The notes under the pieces are model-generated. The model was given only the letters and a program-made list of their open reading frames with translations. It made no database searches and was not told where the DNA came from. From an uncultured Sulfolobales archaeon (GTDB lineage Archaea > Thermoproteota > Thermoprotei_A > Sulfolobales > NBVN01): a stretch of 58,337 nt of DNA. Made by a program: the position numbers and the translations under genes. Positions 6,586-31,397 of the stretch are shown here, in pieces. The stretch covers positions 1-58,337 of the forward strand of contig CALKCU010000037.1 in assembly GCA_938083005.1 (NCBI GenBank), written 5' to 3'. Each line of letters begins with the position of its first letter. The stretch's first letter is position 1.

Positions 6586-7797
6586 CTAGGGCCTCAGCTC
6601 GCCCTCGTACAGAAGGACCCTCCTCGCTCTCTCCGCGTAGACCTCCCTCTGCCTCCTCCACTCCTCCTCGACCTCCTCGACGTCTCTCAGACCCTCGACG
6701 CACTCCCTGACGCTCGCCGCTCCGGCCAGGTAGTCTATCGCGTAGCGGCTGGCCTTCGTGGACCAGCGCAGGTAGTCCTTCAGGTACTCGACCCGCCCCT
6801 CGTCCTCTCCGGTCAGCAGGGAGAAGCGATCGCCGTAGAGCTCCTTCACTACCCTGAGGACCCTGACGAACGTAGAGAACGGCCTGAAGGAGGTCCTGTC
6901 GGTCACGTGGACGTAGACCCCGCTAACCTCGGTCCCCCTGTACTTGCTCGCCCACGGGACGAACTTGACGGGCCTGAAGATTACTCCCGGCATCTTCAGG
7001 CTGTTCAGGGCCTCCGCGAGCTCCCTGGCCCTGATCCACGGAGCTCCTATCTGGAGGAAGGGGGAGGCTGTCCCCCTCCCCTCGGAGAGGTTCGTCGCCT
7101 CTACGAGGCAGGAGCCGGCGTAGACGAGGGCCGTCTCCAGGTTCGGGATGTTGGGGGAGGGGGGAACCCACGGGAGACCCGTCTCGTCGAACCACATCTC
7201 CCTCCTCCACCCGCCGAGCCTAGCCACCAGCACCTCTCCCCCCAGCCCCTCCACTCTCGAGTAGAAGAGGGCCAGCTCCCCCGGGGTCAGACCGTAGCGA
7301 GCCGGCAAGCTGGCGATCCCGGTGAACGAGCGGAGCGAGGGGTCGAGGACGGGCCCCTCGGTCACGGCGCCAGTCAGGGGGTTCGGCCTGTCGAGGACGA
7401 GGAGGGGGGTCCCCGCTTTCGAGCAGGCCGCGACGGTGTAGTAGAGGGTCGATGCGTAGGTGTACCAGCGGAGACCGAGGTCCTGGACGTCGTAGACGAC
7501 GAGATCGAGCTTCTGGACCTCCTCGACGGGAGGCTCGAGGGTCTCGCCGTACAGGCTGTAGACCCTCACTCCGTACTCCGAGTCGAGCCCTCCGCTCACG
7601 AGCTCTCCGGCCGCCGCGTGGCCCCAGAGGCCGTGCTCGGGCGTGAAGACGACCTCGACGCGTCCCAGCCTCCCGGCTATCTCGACGAGGTGCTCCATAG
7701 CTGGCGAGACGCCGGTGTGGTTGGTGACGAGGCCCAGCCTCCTCCCCGCCAACAGCCCGGGCAGCTCCCGGCTCTCGATCCCGGCCCTGACCCTCAA
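6586..7797 (-). CDS. DUF1343/NamZ-like exo-N-acetylmuramidase family protein
   Basis: This 403-residue protein shows the DUF1343 hallmarks in order: GLVTNHTGV (about 22-30), FTPEHGLWG (51-59, with E54 in the position expected for the catalytic acid), VYDVQDLGLRWYTY, and LDRPNPL. The characterised family member NamZ (YbbC of Bacillus subtilis) releases N-acetylmuramic acid from non-reducing ends of peptidoglycan fragments. There is no signal peptide here, so the protein should act in the cytoplasm on imported material. It is translationally coupled (TTGA overlap, TTG start) to a BadF/BadG-type sugar kinase and follows a beta-lactamase-fold hydrolase. The family assignment is firm. The actual glycan in an archaeon, which has no murein of its own, is an open question. 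Confidence 0.85.
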   Translation of the reverse strand: MRVRAGIESRELPGLLAGRRLGLVTNHTGVSPAMEHLVEIAGRLGRVEVVFTPEHGLWGHAAAGELVSGGLDSEYGVRVYSLYGETLEPPVEEVQKLDLVVYDVQDLGLRWYTYASTLYYTVAACSKAGTPLLVLDRPNPLTGAVTEGPVLDPSLRSFTGIASLPARYGLTPGELALFYSRVEGLGGEVLVARLGGWRREMWFDETGLPWVPPSPNIPNLETALVYAGSCLVEATNLSEGRGTASPFLQIGAPWIRARELAEALNSLKMPGVIFRPVKFVPWASKYRGTEVSGVYVHVTDRTSFRPFSTFVRVLRVVKELYGDRFSLLTGEDEGRVEYLKDYLRWSTKASRYAIDYLAGAASVRECVEGLRDVEEVEEEWRRQREVYAERARRVLLYEGELRP

Positions 7798-8789
7798 GGT
7801 CTCGACCTCCGAGGATCTCCCCCCGGTCCGGGACTCTGGAGCCCCTCCTCCGGGAGCCCGACCTTCTCGAGACTCTCGACGTCGTACCCCTCGATCGAGC
7901 TCATGTAGTAGAGCACGCAGCCGAGGAGAGGTGGCGCTCGCCTCACCTCGAACCTCCTCCCCCTCCTCGACTCTACCTCGAACCTGAGGGCGTCGGACAG
8001 GGGTCTGCAGCCGAGGACGGCGCTGCCGGTCCCGTAGACCACGGCGCCCTCTTCGAACCCTAGCTTCCTCTCCACCGCCGAGACCATTCTCTCGAGCTCC
8101 CGGGCCGCGTCCCCCATCAGCTCCAGGGCCAGCTCGCAGCCCAGCTCGGCGGCCCTGCAGGCGAGCTTAGCGAGCTCGGCCACTCTGCTCGGCGCTGCGT
8201 ACTCTCTGTAGAGCCTGCCCAGGGCGTCGCTGACCCCCGCCGCACCCAGCTCCTCTAGGAGGAGCCTCAGGGACGTATCGCCGACTCCGAGCCTGCCGTC
8301 GTAGCGCATCAGGGACCTGCGGACGAACTCCCTGCCGATCCAGTAAGCGCTCCCCTCGTCGCCGAAGAGGTAGCCCCAGCCGCCGGCTCTGGCCTCCGCT
8401 CTCCCCCTGCGGCCGTAGGCGAAGGAGCCGGTCCCCGAGGACACCAGGATAGCGTCTCGACCTCGCGCAGCGGCCGCGTACGCCGCCTCGATGTCTGTGA
8501 GAACCCACAGCTCGACCGGGCCGATCTCCCTCCTCAGAAGCTCCTCCACCTCCCTCCTGTACGCGGAGATCCCGGCTAGGCTGAAGACGTACCCGCCGAC
8601 GTCTTTCCCGAACTCTCTGAGGACGGGGCCAAGCAGAGACCTGAGGTTTTCCAGGAAGGCGGTGGGGCCGAGGACCGCGTAGTTGAGGGGAGGGCCCTCG
8701 AAGAGAGCCAGGGCCCGGCCCCTCCTCTCGAAGACTAGGGCTCTCGAACCGCTGCCTCCCCCGTCTACGGCTACCAGTATGGACGTCAC
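7794..8789 (-). CDS. BadF/BadG/BcrA/BcrD-family kinase, probable N-acetylhexosamine kinase
   Basis: This is an ASKHA-fold ATPase of about 331 residues. VDGGGSGSRALV near the N-terminus is the phosphate-1 loop. SSGTGSFAYG, then GGWGYLFGDEGSAYWIG, are the motifs of N-acetylglucosamine/N-acetylmuramate kinases (NagK/MurK-like) rather than of benzoyl-CoA reductase subunits, which also carry iron-sulfur ligands absent here. GTG 8789 is chosen because a TATA box lies 26 nt upstream; the longer open frame to 8972 runs into the neighbouring gene. The stop overlaps the NamZ-like start by 4 nt. Together they could free and phosphorylate an amino sugar. Its exact substrate (GlcNAc, MurNAc or GlcN) cannot be read from sequence. 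Confidence 0.82.
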   Translation of the reverse strand: MTSILVAVDGGGSGSRALVFERRGRALALFEGPPLNYAVLGPTAFLENLRSLLGPVLREFGKDVGGYVFSLAGISAYRREVEELLRREIGPVELWVLTDIEAAYAAAARGRDAILVSSGTGSFAYGRRGRAEARAGGWGYLFGDEGSAYWIGREFVRRSLMRYDGRLGVGDTSLRLLLEELGAAGVSDALGRLYREYAAPSRVAELAKLACRAAELGCELALELMGDAARELERMVSAVERKLGFEEGAVVYGTGSAVLGCRPLSDALRFEVESRRGRRFEVRRAPPLLGCVLYYMSSIEGYDVESLEKVGLPEEGLQSPGPGGDPRRSRP

Positions 8790-8810
8790 GAAACGGAAGC
8801 CGCTCACAGC

Positions 8811-8818
8811 AATATATA
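8811..8818 (-). promoter_or_regulatory. TATA box for the sugar kinase / NamZ-like pair
   Basis: The minus-strand sequence TATATATT is centred 26 nt upstream of GTG 8789, predicting a leaderless transcript. This gives the kinase and the NamZ-like gene their own promoter in addition to any read-through from the serine hydrolase gene. Confidence 0.65.
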
Positions 8819-8845
8819 CCGCGGGAGCCCGCTCGGGAGACCGCA

Positions 8846-9928
8846 CTAGAGGCAGGAGACGACTAGGTTGTGGAAGACGGGTCTGAAGCCGGCTATCCTG
8901 GTGTTCTCCCTGCTCGGGTGGACCCTGTTGCTCAGGAGGACGGCGACGAGCCTCAGCTCGACGTCTACGCATATCGAGGTACCGGTGAAGCCCGTGTGGC
9001 AGAAGGCCCTCCCGTCCGTGAGAAGGTCTCCGAAGAGTCTGCTGATGCCCTTCCTATAGACCTGCCACCCGAGCCCGTAGGGGTTCTCGCCGTCAGCCCA
9101 CGGTCTGAGCACGGTAGCGGCCGTGGCCCTCTTGAGGAGGCGGTCGCTCCTGCCCAGGTACGCTTGGAGGAGCTCGCTCCCCATCAGTGCGACCTCTGCG
9201 GCTGTCGAGAAGAGCCCCGCGTGACCCGAGACGCCCCCCAGCGCTCTGGCGTTCTCGTCGTGAACCACTCCCCTTAGGGGGAGGCCGGTCTCGGGATCGA
9301 GCTCCGTCGATGCCACCTGGTCCTCGGTGAAGCCGTGCTCTAGGGGGTTGTAGACGGTCCTCCTCAGACCCAGAGGTCTCGCGACGAGCTTCTCGAAGAG
9401 CCTATCGATCCTCTCACCGGAGACCCTCTCCACCAGCGCTGTGAGGACTATGTAGCCGACGTCGCTGTAGACCGCTCTCGATCCAGGCGGACAGCAGATG
9501 AAGGACCTCGCAGCCTCCTCCAGCAGCTCGGCCCTATCCCTCCTGCCGAATCTGTAGAGGGGCAGCGAAGGTGGGAGGCCGGCCGCGTGGGAGAGCAGCA
9601 TCCACACCTCGGTTCTGCTCTTGAGCTCGTCATGCCCGGCTCGGGTCCTCGAGTACTCGGGCAGGATCTCCGAGACCCTCTGCTTCAGGTAGAGGAGCCC
9701 CTCCTCCACCAGCCTGGCGACTATGAGCGACGCGGCGAGGGGCTTCGTCAGGGAGGCGAGGTCGTAGAGGGTCTCCGCGGTCGTGCTCCTCCTGGTGGGA
9801 ACGAGTTCCGCGTAGCCGAGAGCCTCTTCGTATACGGGCTCGCCGTCCTTGTAGACCGCCACGGACGCCCCAGGAAAGACGTCGCCGACGGCGCGGGCGA
9901 GGGCTGCCCTCAGCTTGCCGAAGTCCAC
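8846..9928 (-). CDS. Beta-lactamase-fold (class C/AmpC-like) serine hydrolase
   Basis: This 360-residue protein of the serine beta-lactamase/DD-peptidase superfamily has SLTK at 59-62 (nucleophile S59 and K62), a YSD in the position of the Tyr-x-Asn motif (YSDVGY), and a C-terminal HTG triad replacing KTG. It has no signal peptide or lipobox, so it is predicted to be cytoplasmic. Archaeal relatives include peptidases and esterases. The bacterial NamZ neighbourhood also encodes such a protein (YbbE), which makes hydrolysis of a D-amino-acid or lactyl-peptide bond attractive but unproven. GTG 9928 follows a purine-rich GAGGGAGGG. It lies upstream of and on the same strand as the kinase and NamZ-like genes. 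Confidence 0.85.
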   Translation of the reverse strand: MDFGKLRAALARAVGDVFPGASVAVYKDGEPVYEEALGYAELVPTRRSTTAETLYDLASLTKPLAASLIVARLVEEGLLYLKQRVSEILPEYSRTRAGHDELKSRTEVWMLLSHAAGLPPSLPLYRFGRRDRAELLEEAARSFICCPPGSRAVYSDVGYIVLTALVERVSGERIDRLFEKLVARPLGLRRTVYNPLEHGFTEDQVASTELDPETGLPLRGVVHDENARALGGVSGHAGLFSTAAEVALMGSELLQAYLGRSDRLLKRATAATVLRPWADGENPYGLGWQVYRKGISRLFGDLLTDGRAFCHTGFTGTSICVDVELRLVAVLLSNRVHPSRENTRIAGFRPVFHNLVVSCL

Positions 9929-10221: not shown

Positions 10222-13110
10222 GTGAGCCTCGAGGTGGAGCAAGCTGAGGAGTCCACGCTCGCCGCTAGGATCGCGAGTTCCCTTGGCGAGCTGCTCGGCG
10301 CTCGCTGCCAGATCGCTGGAGATTCGAGCATCAGGTGCTACCGCGGCGGGATCAGGATAGCCGCGGCGCTCTCGAGCGCCGCGGACGACGTGGAGGAGAG
10401 AATGGCTGAGATGCTCGAGAAGGGTCTAGCTGACCTGGCTCTGCTAGTGAGGCCTCTCGGAGGACCGTCGGGGGAGCTCAGGTTTAGCGCTAGGCTGAGG
10501 ACTTCCGGGGGACCCGGGGAAATCCTCGAGGGAGTAGAGCTGGAGACCCTCGCGAGCGCGATCGAGAGAGCTATCGAGGACCTCGTCTCGGGATCCGAGG
10601 TCGGGGGAGAGCTTGAGAGAGTGAGGAGAGCCGTGGAGCGGTTCGTCGAGGTGGCTACCCGCGGTGGGGTCCCGGGGATCCCCCGCTCCCGGCTAGTCGG
10701 AGCGCTCGGAGGTCCCTACGGCTCCGGCGCCTCCGAGAGTGAGGTGGTCCTGGTCCAAGAGGCCCTGGCGCTGTTCCTCTCAGCAGTCCTCTACGAGCGC
10801 TCGAGAAAGTCCCTCGGCCTCCCACCGCTGGACAGCTACTTGGAGTCCCTCGGGGCCCTTCGAGGGCTCGAGAGGGCCCTGTCGAACCTCCTGGAGACCC
10901 GCCGAGAGCCCCTAGTCGAGCTCGCGCTGGAAGCTCTGAGGAGCCTCCCCCCGGAGCTCGAGGGGCCCGTCCGGAGCCTAGCCGGGGTAGCCCTCGACGT
11001 AGCGGGGAGACCCCACCTACTGCTCAGGGACGTCGCCGGCAGGATATACCACAGAGTCGCCGGGGACGTAGCCCTGAAGAAGGGGCTCGCCACGTTCTAC
11101 ACGGAGGTCCCGGCCGCCTACCTGCTCGCGGACCTGGCTCTGAGGAGAGCGCTGAACACCGGCGCAGGAGCGGGAGCCTCCCGGGAGACGGCTGGGGGGC
11201 TCGCGAGGAGAGTCGCGGAGCTGAAGATAGCGGACTTCGCGTGCGGTAGCGGGACCCTGCTCGCGGCGACGCTTTACTGCGCCTCCAGGATAGCCAAAGC
11301 GGCCTGCTTCCTGAGCGGCGTCGAATGCCCGGGCGTCGAGAAGACCCTCGTCGAGAGGGGGCTCTACGGCTTGGAGGCGATGGAGTACGCCGCGGCCGTT
11401 GCTAGAGCGGGCCTCGCGATCATGTCCCCGGAGGTAGCAGCCGGGGTCGGCGTGTACGCGGTCCGCCTGGGCTCGGGTCCCGGGGGGAGAGCGAGCCTAG
11501 GGTCCCTGGAGCTCCTGGAGGTCGAGACCCTCGGCAGCTCGGTCTGGGTCGAGACCGTCGGCGGTAAGGTGGAGATCCCCGGCTCCTACGACGTGGTCAT
11601 CATGAACCCGCCGTTCACCAGACCAACCGGCAGGACCCGGGAGAGGTTCGGGGAGGCGGGGAGGGGATTCTTCGGCTTCGTGGCCGACCCGCGGATCAGA
11701 GAGACCCTCGTAGCTAAGTACCGAAGGATACGCGAGAGGGTTAGGAGGGACATGCTCGAGGTCGCTAGGAGGCTCTTCTCCTCAGAGCCTACGCTCTCCA
11801 GGGCCCTCGCGCGGCTGAGCAGCTACGAGACGGCGAGGTCTCGCGGGCTCGGCCAGTACTTCAGCGTGGGGCAGGCCGGCGAGGGGCTCCTCTTCCTCTA
11901 CCTCGCCTACAGGTACGTGAAGCCCGGCGGAGTAGTGGCCTTCGTGCTCCCGAGAAACCTCCTGTCCGGGGTCTCCTGGTTCCTGGCGAGGGCTCTGCTG
12001 GCCGAGGGCTTCCACCTCAGGTACGTGATCGTGAGCAGCGACAGCGAGAGCGGGTACAACTTCTCGGAGAACACGAGCCTCAGTGAGTGCTTGGTGGTCG
12101 CGGAGAGGGTCTCGGAGCACGACCCGAGCGAGGAGACTCTCTTCGTCGACCTCCTCAAAAAGCCCGGGAGCGTCCTCGGCTCTCTGCTCCTCTCCGAGGC
12201 CCTGGCGGCCGGCGCCGTAGAGCTCCCGCGCAGCGCGAAGTGTCTCGTCCGGAGGGTCCGGAGGGTAGAGCTACTCGAGAACCTCGACAACCTGAACAGG
12301 TTCGTGGCCCTCCCGGAGCCCGGAGTGGTCGACGCGGGTCTCAGGCTCCTCAGGCTGGGCGACCTGGGAGTCGCTGGGCTCAGAGTCCCGCTGGCCAGGC
12401 TCGGGGACCTCATCGCTTCGATAGGGATAGACTCGCCCCAGTTCCACGAGCACTTCAGGCCCACCCGCGCCAGGACCCCGTACCCGATACTGTTCGGAGG
12501 AGGGGAGCCGGCGAGGTCCGGGATCCTGGTGAGGCCCAACGCCTACGCCGAGCCCAAGACCCAGAGAGCCGCCGAGATCTACCGGAGGTTCTCCGGGAGG
12601 GTCGTGGTCCCGGATAGAATATGGATGGACACGGCGCACGTGATCTCGGCGTACTCCGAGACCCCGGTGGTCTCCAACGTCTTCTACATCGCTAGGCTCA
12701 GGGAGCCCTCGGAGCGCTTGGAGAAGGCCCTCGTCTACTGGCTGAACACCACGTGGGGAGTGCTGGCGGTCCTCATGAACAGGGAGGAAACCAGGGGCAG
12801 GTGGGTTAGGCTGAAGAAGGCTCAGTGGAGGCTCCTACCGGTGCCGGACTTCGGGAGGTTAGGACGGGACGCCGTGGCTAGGCTGGCCGAGCTCTTCGAC
12901 GAGATCTCCAGGTTCGAGCCCCGGAGGATACCGGACCAGTACTCCGAGGACCCGCGGGACGCCGACCCCCTGAGGCTCGAGATAGACCTCGGGCTCCTCA
13001 GAGCGCTGAACACAAGCGTGGACGCCGGGGAGGCTGAGGGGCAGCTGCGGACGCTGTACAAGGGGATGGCGGTGGCCCTGAGGCGCTGGATCGGTCGCTC
13101 TACGCCCTGA
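10222..13110 (+). CDS. Large N-6 adenine-type DNA methyltransferase, solitary
   Basis: This 962-residue protein has SAM-binding motif I, DFACGSGTLL, starting at D338, and catalytic motif IV NPPF at 462-465. The order and spacing match gamma/Eco57I-like adenine-N6 DNA methyltransferases. The N-terminal 330 residues are helical and hydrophilic. The region after about residue 700 should hold the target-recognition part (for example LGDLIASIGID). I see no PD-(D/E)xK or HNH nuclease motif and no restriction, helicase or BREX/DISARM gene beside it, so it looks like an orphan methyltransferase or a type IIG relative without a cleavage domain. GTG 10222 follows a clear GGAGAGAGGTG. RNA methylation is less likely given the size and architecture. 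Confidence 0.8.
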   Translation: MSLEVEQAEESTLAARIASSLGELLGARCQIAGDSSIRCYRGGIRIAAALSSAADDVEERMAEMLEKGLADLALLVRPLGGPSGELRFSARLRTSGGPGEILEGVELETLASAIERAIEDLVSGSEVGGELERVRRAVERFVEVATRGGVPGIPRSRLVGALGGPYGSGASESEVVLVQEALALFLSAVLYERSRKSLGLPPLDSYLESLGALRGLERALSNLLETRREPLVELALEALRSLPPELEGPVRSLAGVALDVAGRPHLLLRDVAGRIYHRVAGDVALKKGLATFYTEVPAAYLLADLALRRALNTGAGAGASRETAGGLARRVAELKIADFACGSGTLLAATLYCASRIAKAACFLSGVECPGVEKTLVERGLYGLEAMEYAAAVARAGLAIMSPEVAAGVGVYAVRLGSGPGGRASLGSLELLEVETLGSSVWVETVGGKVEIPGSYDVVIMNPPFTRPTGRTRERFGEAGRGFFGFVADPRIRETLVAKYRRIRERVRRDMLEVARRLFSSEPTLSRALARLSSYETARSRGLGQYFSVGQAGEGLLFLYLAYRYVKPGGVVAFVLPRNLLSGVSWFLARALLAEGFHLRYVIVSSDSESGYNFSENTSLSECLVVAERVSEHDPSEETLFVDLLKKPGSVLGSLLLSEALAAGAVELPRSAKCLVRRVRRVELLENLDNLNRFVALPEPGVVDAGLRLLRLGDLGVAGLRVPLARLGDLIASIGIDSPQFHEHFRPTRARTPYPILFGGGEPARSGILVRPNAYAEPKTQRAAEIYRRFSGRVVVPDRIWMDTAHVISAYSETPVVSNVFYIARLREPSERLEKALVYWLNTTWGVLAVLMNREETRGRWVRLKKAQWRLLPVPDFGRLGRDAVARLAELFDEISRFEPRRIPDQYSEDPRDADPLRLEIDLGLLRALNTSVDAGEAEGQLRTLYKGMAVALRRWIGRSTP

Positions 13111-27545: not shown

Positions 27546-30500
27546 TCACACCAACCCCATATTCTCCAGATCGCTGTAGAGTATCGACAGCACCTCCTCG
27601 TAATCTTCCTGACCCCGCTCCACCATATCCATCCTCCTCTCAAGGTCCCTGGTTCTCTCCTCGCTGACGAGGTTCCCGAACCTCTTCACCAGGTAGTCGT
27701 AGACTCTCTCCCCGAGGAGCGTCGGATCCATGAAGCCCGCACTCCCGATCTTGAGAGCGTAGCCCCTCCTCAGGATGGTCTCCACGATCTTGGAGTACGT
27801 GCTGGGCCTACCTATACCCGCTCTCTTCATCTCGCGTACAAGGGACGCCTCCGTGTGAGGGAGGTGCCTGCTCCTGCTAAGCAGACTAAAACTGGACGCT
27901 AAGTAGGTGCCCGGCGCGATCGGCTTCCTGACGCGGATCGTCCTATCGTACTTGAGGAAGCCCTCTTTAACTACGGACGTGTATATCTCGAGGTACTTCC
28001 TGGGCTTTGCGACGATCTCACGGCCCTTCTTGAGCCTCATCACCATTCTGTACTTAAACCTGGAGACGACGACCTTGGCCCGAGCCGACTGGGACGCTAT
28101 GAACCTCCTGAAGATCGCGTCGTAGACCATGTAGTGCTCCCTCCGTAGCCTGATAACCGGCTCGATCACGCCCTCCTCTACGAGTCTCCGCAGGGTCTCC
28201 GCGTCGATGGGCCTCGTGGGCCTTATGGCCTCGTGAGCGCCCCCCTCACCCCACCTTCTGGGTCTGAAGATCTTCTTGTACCCCCTTCCTTCCACCTGTC
28301 TTAAATAGTCCTCGGCTACCCTGATCCCGGCATCCGAGACCCTGGTGCTATCAGTCCTGTGGTAGGTTATGAGACCTACCTCGAAGAGGTCTTGAAGTAT
28401 CTCCATGACCCTCGCGGCGGGCATTCTGTACCTACTGCATAGCTCGGAGAGAGCGGAGTCGGTGGTGAACGGAGGCGGTGCTTTGAGCAGCTTTCTCAGC
28501 TCTCCTCTCCTCGGGACTTCTACTATCACCTCGACCGAGGCTATGCTGGTGGCGCGCCGGATCTTCCTGTCGTATTCCTTCGGGAGTTCGTAGGTGAACT
28601 CTACGTCGCCCAGACCCTCGACGGTCGCGACCAAGACCCTCCTCCTAGTCGCCCTGTACCTCTTTTCGGCATCTATTACCCAGCCCAGGACCGGGGTCTG
28701 CACTCTACCCGCTGAGAGGTTCCTGTATACCCTTGGGTTCTTCTCGCAGAGGCTTCTGTACCGCTGTTGGGTCACCTCGCGGCAGAAGCCGATCCAGAAG
28801 TTCCCCTGGAGCTCCCTAGAGAGGGAGAAGCCTATCCACCTATCCTCGATACGCCTCACGAGCTGAGCCTTGACGAGCTTCGTATCAACGTCCCTGGGGT
28901 TAGCGATGGCGTTGAGTAGGGCTCTCCTCGTCACTTCGTGGAACTCTATCCTCCTAATGTTGCCGTTCATCGGGGCGACGAGGCTGACCAGGTCGTAGGC
29001 TATCTTCTCGCCCTCGGTATCCGGGTCCGTTCCGACCAGCACCTCGTCTACCTCCATCGCGACGTCTCTGATCGCCGAGACGAAGTCCCACGAGTTCACT
29101 ACGCGCTTCGAGCCGCAGTAGGGACAGGCGTCTTCTGCTGGCTCGTTCGTAAACTGTCTACCGCACGACTGACACCTCTTTATGGGAGCGTAGATGGGAA
29201 CGTACTTCAGGGGTCTGGGGTTCCCGCTCTTAATAGCTACCCCGAAGAGTATCCTCCACTCGCTGAAGTGAGTGGGCTCCGCGAGGTCCGTGATCAGATC
29301 GTAGACGTGACCTCCGGACGACGTTACGAGCAGGGTCTGATTGCCGAGGCTAACCTCGTATACGCGAAGCCTCCCGTAGACCCTAGTGCTCGGCCTCCCG
29401 AAGAACCTCGCCATGGTCCTCGCCTTGTTCGGGGACTCGACGACCAGGAGGGAGGTCTTGAACTCGAGCCCCCTCAGCTTCTTCAGCTCCTCCTCGGGCA
29501 CTGTGCCCTCGCGGATCCTCCTTATAAGCTCCCTGTCCCCATCGACCTCCTTCATGATCTCCTCAGGGTGGATCTCCGAGTACTTCACGAACTTGAAGTC
29601 GTCCATGACGAAGGAGAGCCTCCTCTCGAGCCCCCTCAGGAGCCTCTTGTCATCAACTATGGTTATCGAGATACCCCTGCTTATGCCCCCAAGGTAGAGC
29701 CTCGACGTCCTACCGCTCGCCTGGATGTAAGTCGGGGCGTCCGGGATGAGTACGTAGCGCTCCCCATTCTCACTCACGACAGCGACCTCGGGGTTTCGGA
29801 CTATGGAGTCTAGGACCCTGGGGTCCTTGATCAAGTCCTCGACGAGCTTGAGGGCTTCCACGAAGACCCTCTCGACAGAGGTCTCCGGCTCTCTAGCCCT
29901 CCTCATAACCTCCCTAAACCTCTCGATCGCGAAGGCCCCGGCCCTCCGCACGGTCCTCGCCAGCCTCGCGTAGCACCTCTCCAGCTTCTCGCGTACCTCA
30001 TCGGACTCGACGGAGCTTATCAGGATGGGCAGGAGCCTGAGGACGTCCGCCGCGTCGAGCCTCTCCACTCTTAGCGCGACCTTGTGCCTCGGGACGCCGA
30101 CGAAGACCGCATACCTTACGTGCTCGGGAAGGTCTATGCCCCTGACGAGCACTCCGTAGTACGTCGCTACCCCGACAAGCACGTCTACCTCTCCGGAGAC
30201 GAAGAGCTGCAGCGTACCGGTCTTCTTACTGTGGAGGGCCTCGGCTCTCACCCCCGAGGCTCTCAGGTGCTCCGCTAGGTGGTTAGCGTACTCTATACCC
30301 CGGTCGGTAGGTACGTAAACCAGCCCCCCCTTCCCCAAGCTCTTCACAAGCTCAGCCGCGGTCTCCTCGAGACTCTTGGAGGGAAGGATGTAGGCGTCGA
30401 CTACGTTCCTTATGAGCTCGGGACGCGCGCCGATGTCGAACCCTAGCAGCTCCCTGAAGAGCCTGGACCTGATGCCCCTGGGCGAGCCGGTGGCTGAGGA

Positions 30501-31397
30501 TATCACGAGCACGGACTTCACTCTCCTCGCTCTCTCCCTCAAGAGGCTCTCTCGCTCCGCCAGCTCCTTCTCCACGTCCTCCCGGGGACCGCGGTACGCT
30601 ACCTCCCTCCTCAGCTTTATGAGCTCCATGCCAGCGGCGATGTCCTCCTCGGAGAACCCCATCAGTTGCAGGATGAGCTCTATGGCTCTGGACCCGCGCA
30701 TGATAGCGTCTACGTCATCTACAAACACGTACCCGAATCTACGGCTCTCCTGCTCGTCGGAGTTCTTCATCTTGATCTTGTCGAAGTTCTTCATGAGGTA
30801 CCTGGATGTGGTGATGAGTATGTCGAAGTCCCACTTTTGTACCGCCTCCTCCCTCTTGAGCCTCTCGGACTTGCTCAGCCTGGAGTGTATCGAGACCACC
30901 AGGGCCGTAAGGCCTAGCCTGTCGAGGAACCTCCTCACTATCCTCTCGGCCTGATCCACCAGGATCGTCGTCGGCACTATGACGTAGCTCTTGCGCCCCT
31001 TCATAGCGAAGTAGATAGCGGCCAGGAGACCCGCGGTGGTCTTGCCGACGCCGGTGGGCGCCAGCATCGCGAACGATATCCCCTTGCTCAGCCGCTTGAG
31101 CCAGAGCTTCTGGACGCCCCAGGGCTCACTCCCCACGGCCCTCCTGAAGAGGTCCAGGAGCTCCCCGTAGACCCTCTCTACCTCCTCCAGCTCTCCGTAG
31201 AGCTTTATGGTGCCCCTCTCCCTCATCGCGCGGAACAAGGACTCCCTGTCGGCGATCACTTCACTGGACGGGAGGCACCTGACGCACGGAAGGCCGGCGA
31301 GGAGCCTCTTGTCGCTAATAGCACCTCCGCAGTTGGGACATGCCCTGAGGTACACAGCTAGCGACGCTTCATCAAGCTCCTCCCTAACTACTACCAC
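27546..31397 (-). CDS. rgy: Reverse gyrase
   Basis: This 1283-residue fusion of an SF2 helicase-like domain and a type IA topoisomerase introduces positive supercoils using ATP, and it is a hallmark of hyperthermophiles. An N-terminal zinc finger has C20, C23, C38 and C41. Walker A is APTGVGKTTAGL (K119), and the Walker B is VDDVD. The TOPRIM domain begins VVESPNKARTMARFFG with E654. A second zinc finger, CQSCGRQF...CPYCGSK, lies inside it. The catalytic tyrosine is Y1012 in ITYHRTDST. All domains are intact and unsplit. GTG 31397 directly follows an in-frame TAA, has GAGGG upstream, and a TATA box about 48 nt away. Confidence 0.97.
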   Translation of the reverse strand: MVVVREELDEASLAVYLRACPNCGGAISDKRLLAGLPCVRCLPSSEVIADRESLFRAMRERGTIKLYGELEEVERVYGELLDLFRRAVGSEPWGVQKLWLKRLSKGISFAMLAPTGVGKTTAGLLAAIYFAMKGRKSYVIVPTTILVDQAERIVRRFLDRLGLTALVVSIHSRLSKSERLKREEAVQKWDFDILITTSRYLMKNFDKIKMKNSDEQESRRFGYVFVDDVDAIMRGSRAIELILQLMGFSEEDIAAGMELIKLRREVAYRGPREDVEKELAERESLLRERARRVKSVLVISSATGSPRGIRSRLFRELLGFDIGARPELIRNVVDAYILPSKSLEETAAELVKSLGKGGLVYVPTDRGIEYANHLAEHLRASGVRAEALHSKKTGTLQLFVSGEVDVLVGVATYYGVLVRGIDLPEHVRYAVFVGVPRHKVALRVERLDAADVLRLLPILISSVESDEVREKLERCYARLARTVRRAGAFAIERFREVMRRAREPETSVERVFVEALKLVEDLIKDPRVLDSIVRNPEVAVVSENGERYVLIPDAPTYIQASGRTSRLYLGGISRGISITIVDDKRLLRGLERRLSFVMDDFKFVKYSEIHPEEIMKEVDGDRELIRRIREGTVPEEELKKLRGLEFKTSLLVVESPNKARTMARFFGRPSTRVYGRLRVYEVSLGNQTLLVTSSGGHVYDLITDLAEPTHFSEWRILFGVAIKSGNPRPLKYVPIYAPIKRCQSCGRQFTNEPAEDACPYCGSKRVVNSWDFVSAIRDVAMEVDEVLVGTDPDTEGEKIAYDLVSLVAPMNGNIRRIEFHEVTRRALLNAIANPRDVDTKLVKAQLVRRIEDRWIGFSLSRELQGNFWIGFCREVTQQRYRSLCEKNPRVYRNLSAGRVQTPVLGWVIDAEKRYRATRRRVLVATVEGLGDVEFTYELPKEYDRKIRRATSIASVEVIVEVPRRGELRKLLKAPPPFTTDSALSELCSRYRMPAARVMEILQDLFEVGLITYHRTDSTRVSDAGIRVAEDYLRQVEGRGYKKIFRPRRWGEGGAHEAIRPTRPIDAETLRRLVEEGVIEPVIRLRREHYMVYDAIFRRFIASQSARAKVVVSRFKYRMVMRLKKGREIVAKPRKYLEIYTSVVKEGFLKYDRTIRVRKPIAPGTYLASSFSLLSRSRHLPHTEASLVREMKRAGIGRPSTYSKIVETILRRGYALKIGSAGFMDPTLLGERVYDYLVKRFGNLVSEERTRDLERRMDMVERGQEDYEEVLSILYSDLENMGLV

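Follow-up and report, generated by a model that had tools for sequence, protein, structure and literature searches.

A probable murein-salvage gene set that has lost MurQ in an uncultured Sulfolobales archaeon

The DNA analysed here, in the following called the window, is the whole of contig 37 (CALKCU010000037.1, 58,337 nucleotides) of a metagenome-assembled genome (MAG) of an uncultured, heat-loving Sulfolobales archaeon (83% complete, 1.33 Mb; 63% GC). Three of its genes, encoding a predicted exo-β-N-acetylmuramidase (NamZ), an amino-sugar kinase and a serine hydrolase, were studied as a possible route for the salvage of bacterial peptidoglycan (murein). An earlier sequence-only reading had described them as three same-strand genes with kinase and NamZ coupled by 4 nt; all three were found in place on the minus strand, and the coupling is the overlap TTGA at 7797-7794. 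The locus is laid out as follows.

8846-9928, minus strand: AmiE/PBP4B(YfeW)-like serine hydrolase of 360 residues, a predicted cytosolic N-acetylmuramoyl-L-alanine amidase (PF00144)
8811-8818, minus strand: TATA-like box tatatatt, putative promoter of kinase and NamZ, proposed from the sequence and its conservation in a second genome
7794-8789, minus strand: BadF/BadG-family amino-sugar kinase, assigned to the MurK type, 331 residues, GTG start (PF01869)
7794-7816, minus strand: kinase/NamZ junction, where relatives carry murQ; weak out-of-frame GGRDLEG
6586-7797, minus strand: NamZ (GH171), predicted exo-β-N-acetylmuramidase, 403 residues, TTG start (PF07075 and PF20732)

Profile searches confirmed the three families to which the proteins had been assigned. 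The DUF1343/NamZ-like protein exceeded the cut-offs of both PF07075 (NamZ_N, 227.1 bits) and PF20732 (NamZ_C, 154.3 bits) and matched PDB 4k05 at 2.6e-63, and its exo-activity on the β-linked ends of N-acetylmuramic acid (MurNAc) is predicted from the family; a single-sequence structure model of it reached a predicted local distance difference test (pLDDT) score of only 39. The kinase, read before as a BadF/BadG-type N-acetylhexosamine kinase, scored 94 bits with PF01869 and has MurK (PDB 8zo3) as its best solved relative by sequence. Its start is the GTG at 8789 rather than the first ATG of the frame at 8972, which refines the earlier description. The hydrolase scored 200 bits with PF00144, the class C β-lactamase fold, and the AmpC-fold motifs SLTK, YSD and HTG named before lie at 59, 154 and 311, so that the SxxK, YxN/D and HTG set is complete. 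Its best NCBIfam model was PBP4B (3e-55), but with 187.6 bits against an equivalog cut-off of 385, and it is therefore called AmiE-like and not PBP4B. It is 34% identical to Escherichia coli YfeW, whose gene belongs to the murQ-murP-yfeW cluster, and the AmiE amidase of Bacillus subtilis is of the same family as YfeW. No hydrophobic leader was found in any of the three proteins, as already noted from the sequence, and the window NamZ is accordingly taken to be cytosolic. By a crude hydropathy test a leader was present in none of the archaeal NamZ proteins and in 31 of 78 bacterial ones.

The same locus is retained in an independently assembled genome of an uncultured Sulfolobales archaeon (L065), with all three genes at 80-88% identity. 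The hydrolases are 83.6% identical, and the L065 NamZ, at about 88-89%, is the closest one of named origin. The TATA-like box (8818-8811) lies about 25 nt 5′ of the kinase GTG and recurs in L065 at a nearly equal distance, which suggests that kinase and NamZ are probably transcribed from a separate promoter of their own as a leaderless message. A search for RNA families and tRNAs found none.

No MurQ, the MurNAc-6-phosphate (MurNAc-6-P) etherase that in bacteria follows the kinase step, had been seen in the window, and this absence was borne out and extended to both Sulfolobales genomes. In the window, kinase and NamZ overlap exactly where relatives carry murQ, and in L065 the kinase lies beside NamZ without murQ in between or elsewhere in the genome. 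Searches of the window's own genome with TIGR00274 and an archaeal MurQ query gave nothing but SIS-domain noise of 19-30 bits. A MurQ hidden elsewhere was rejected, the short SIS-domain matches lying in frames of about 200 and 615 residues that are probably PHI-like and GlmS-like. MurQ is lost in this Sulfolobales lineage, in common to both genomes, of which the window's own was recovered to 83%. The GGRDLEG read out of frame before NamZ resembles the GGRVEG end of MurQ and might be a scar of the murQ deletion; being only seven residues long and not evident in L065, it was given little weight. In a further genome, G236 (L049), NamZ and an AmiE-like gene are kept and both kinase and MurQ are gone from the locus, apparently independently of the window lineage.

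Of 398 evenly drawn Thermoproteota genomes, 31 carry NamZ (16 of 164 genera). Synteny of the gene set is conserved across many families of the phylum; true MurQ usually accompanies it and AmiE or AnmK frequently does, and the suspicion that the kinase might be an unrelated one without synteny elsewhere did not hold. In the closest relatives murQ lies exactly between kinase and NamZ, an order seen in five loci (L043, L046, L051, L058, L061); at most other NamZ loci it is close by. MurQ exceeded the TIGR00274 equivalog cut-off in 25 genomes; the archaeal proteins share for the most part 40-48% identity with MurQ of E. coli, form one group with 96/98 support (the bacterial rows being long branches) and invariably keep the equivalents of E83 and E114, the catalytic residues of the E. 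coli enzyme. AnmK, which phosphorylates anhydro-MurNAc, was found in 22 genomes and as one weak fragment. Co-occurrence with NamZ was strong for MurQ (Fisher p=2.5e-28) and for AnmK (p=2e-19), both tests ignoring phylogeny. Often near NamZ are also genes for AmiE, AnmK, diaminopimelate decarboxylase (LysA), a PIG-L deacetylase or a peptide-type ATP-binding cassette (ABC) importer. The locus L043 unites AmiE, an M28 peptidase, AnmK, kinase, MurQ, NamZ, LysA and an Opp-type importer in a single island, its diaminopimelate decarboxylase exceeding the lysA cut-off, and LysA lies in the NamZ island also in L061 and L042. A bacterial counterpart is the Opp-NamZ-AmiE-AnmK-MurK-MurQ operon of an Anaerolineae bacterium (L117). 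The position of MurQ beside NamZ and kinase in the relatives, together with the strong co-occurrence, points to murein salvage of the bacterial type in archaea.

In a quick tree of 109 NamZ sequences (SH-aLRT, a likelihood-ratio branch test, as the only support) the archaeal proteins grouped together with a single long-branched bacterial row as intruder. NamZ of the window and L065 branches within a set from a different family (f33, together with f60), indicating transfer between archaeal lineages. Within the window's own family, three of the genomes sampled lack NamZ. The kinase nests like NamZ inside the MurQ-linked archaeal clade. Its AlphaFold model (pLDDT 87) matched the hexokinase of Sulfolobus tokodaii and MurK about equally, and the fold search did not separate the two. 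In the structures of Tannerella forsythia MurK, acceptance of MurNAc is ascribed to a small loop and to the Thr that precedes the catalytic Asp, a position where other kinases have Asn or His (PMC10465942). The rule, by which a small residue at this position and the lack of a bulky one in the 133-135 loop would make room for the lactyl group, is broken by MurK of Clostridium acetobutylicum with its Asn; the window kinase has T98 before its catalytic D99 and a GGW loop. Before the catalytic Asp, Thr, Ser, Pro or Gly is found in the remaining archaeal kinases linked to MurQ, and Asn in the two that are linked to NagA and the SIS protein described below. By fold and by orthology with the MurQ-linked kinases, the window kinase is assigned to the MurK type.

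NagA is encoded in both Sulfolobales genomes (314 and 292 bits) and is directly followed in both by the gene of a SIS protein of 252-253 residues (UPF0309/PRK02947; on G000:C14 in the window's genome), which scored 258-262 bits against the NF002805 cut-off of 135. The best solved relatives of this protein are SCO4393 and 3cvj. SCO4393 is NagS, a dehydratase of Streptomyces that is related to MurQ and eliminates at C3 of N-acetylglucosamine 6-phosphate (GlcNAc-6-P); this activity was restricted to Streptomycetaceae, and distant NagS homologues had none (PMC12680351). Of the NagS residues, His53, Ser54, Arg64, Glu94, Ser119 and Ser121 are fully or almost fully conserved in the archaeal alignment, and Asn228 is found in most rows. 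NagB exceeded its cut-off in none of 15 genomes tested, and a canonical NagB as the final step was looked for and not found; AnmK was likewise searched for in the window's own genome and none was found. The question raised from the sequence, whether the sugar is GlcNAc-like or a different route is used, is thereby narrowed to one candidate gene, that of the NagA-adjacent UPF0309 SIS protein.

The three genes are probably the core that remains here, after the loss of MurQ, of a bacterial-type route for murein salvage in the cytosol that is old in Thermoproteota. The AmiE-like hydrolase would strip the peptide from imported wall fragments, NamZ would free MurNAc from the non-reducing end of MurNAc-GlcNAc, and the MurK-type kinase would form the 6-phosphates. 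GlcNAc-6-P would then be processed by NagA, encoded elsewhere in the genome. In the relatives, MurQ would convert MurNAc-6-P to GlcNAc-6-P and D-lactate, and in the window lineage after the loss of MurQ either the SIS protein may have taken over this step or the GlcNAc half alone may be used. The peptidoglycan-salvage reading of the locus gained support from the conserved synteny, the orthology with MurQ-linked kinases and the MurQ absence shared with L065; the function we infer from the genomes, together with the substrates and reactions, the import and the reason for the MurQ loss.

Several observations weigh against this explanation. MurQ, NagB, AnmK and LD-carboxypeptidase are all absent from the window's genome, so that the salvage route is incomplete as known; the MAG is only 83% complete. 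The LD-carboxypeptidase of family S66, a sign of peptide use, was found only in one genus (g63) and two NamZ-lacking genomes, and not in that of the window. No importer is linked to the locus, where the neighbouring ABC pair is of the exporter-like ABC-2 type. The C. acetobutylicum MurK has Asn before its catalytic Asp and accepts GlcNAc as well, which makes the Thr of the window kinase support for, and not proof of, MurNAc specificity. The two Opp-like operons elsewhere in the genome adjoin LamB/YcsF (5-oxoprolinase-type) genes as read from the sequence.

Harvest of GlcNAc only is a tenable, if less probable, alternative. NamZ and the AmiE-like hydrolase would strip the fragments, the kinase would mainly make GlcNAc-6-P, and the route would be finished by NagA and by the SIS protein acting as GlcN-6-P deaminase/isomerase, MurNAc or MurNAc-6-P being a dead end or exported. 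This would agree with a MurQ loss common to two genomes and with the presence of NagA without NagB. The SIS protein also occurs in 23 genomes without NamZ, often adjacent to NagA and twice to a kinase, and together with the missing NagB this suggests that it may serve GlcNAc catabolism. The window kinase has, however, retained the small residue of the MurQ-linked kinases before its Asp where the NagA-SIS-linked ones have Asn, and a build-up of MurNAc-6-P would be a drain. Difficult to reconcile with a GlcNAc-only route is also the genus g63: in five of its genomes (L045, L047, L050, L057, L060; one a single-contig genome) NamZ is immediately preceded by the SIS gene, AnmK is present and MurQ absent.

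It is rather unlikely, though suggested by the same five genomes, that the SIS protein is itself a non-orthologous MurNAc-6-P etherase and the pathway complete here. The family was found in 6 of 7 genomes with NamZ and without MurQ and in 0 of 24 with both (p=1e-5), and in 0 of 28 genomes with MurQ, but this exclusion rests on only about two independent lineages. Kinship with MurQ, elimination at C3 by NagS (PMC12680351) and the conserved active-site His, Ser, Arg and Glu would fit an etherase, whereas the inactivity of distant NagS homologues, the 23 genomes lacking NamZ, and G236, which is MurQ-less and has no SIS protein, do not. The broader proposal, that UPF0309 SIS proteins outside Streptomycetaceae include a second MurNAc-6-P etherase family which replaces MurQ in wall-salvaging archaea by a NagS-like C2-C3 elimination, is held just as doubtful. 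That the enzymes act on an archaeal S-layer glycan or N-glycan instead of murein is improbable. Such a reading would suit the apparently cytosolic place of all three proteins and the fact that archaea of this order are not known to make MurNAc, but the clusters or genomes of the relatives also hold MurQ and AnmK, and both of these are known to act on MurNAc derivatives. Contaminating bacterial DNA or a mis-binned contig, suggested by the mainly bacterial families, was rejected as practically excluded by the archaeal genes on the window (among them a reverse gyrase-like gene at 27546-31397, as read from the sequence), the same locus in L065 and the grouping of archaeal NamZ and MurQ apart from bacterial ones.

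Bacteria are known to possess the pathway; new is its archaeal and cytosolic form, here without MurQ. With the exo-lytic murein recycling systems of bacteria (NamZ-NagZ-AmiE-MurQ of B. subtilis, murTKQ of T. forsythia, MurK of C. acetobutylicum) the window shares NamZ, an AmiE-family hydrolase and a BadF-type kinase, and similar clusters of archaeal relatives additionally contain MurQ, AnmK and an Opp-type importer. It differs in its archaeal host, in a NamZ without signal peptide and in a route that lacks MurQ and would end in NagA and the SIS protein. From NagS the archaeal SIS protein, of the same UPF0309 family and with the same active-site residues, differs in the linkage of its gene to NagA or NamZ (PMC12680351). 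Since murein synthesis is not known in this group, a catabolic route for MurNAc would mean feeding on bacterial wall debris. Archaeal peptidoglycan hydrolases, likewise archaeal enzymes on the bacterial wall, were shown to kill bacteria, and the 2025 study left killing versus scavenging undecided (PMC12352652); the present genes would form an intracellular catabolic arm for fragments, known from genes, which makes the scavenging role directly testable. No earlier report of MurNAc catabolism in archaea was found in the open-access papers searched, subscription papers not being covered. The linked diaminopimelate decarboxylase of the relatives hints at lysine supply from the wall peptide, and the MurQ gap singles out one uncharacterised protein as candidate.

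Among the neighbouring genes, a 962-residue protein that has an NPPF motif like that of DNA methylases and matches no Pfam family (10222-13110, plus strand) separates the salvage genes from conserved genes upstream; it has no match in L065 and is likely a lineage-specific insertion. A PIG-L family deacetylase gene adjoins NamZ in many archaea (L034, L035, L036, L046, L049, L051), and as the f33 genomes tested had no NagA over the cut-off, PIG-L may be their deacetylation step. The window's own genome has two LysA genes and one GH84 enzyme, a β-N-acetylglucosaminidase (L166, G000:C2, 1311-2711; PF07555, 290 bits) that lies about 5.6 kb from the second diaminopimelate decarboxylase gene and could stand in for NagZ by removing GlcNAc. 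On another contig (L165, G000:C8), three consecutive GH130-like genes, the family being read from sequence, lie near a diaminopimelate decarboxylase gene.

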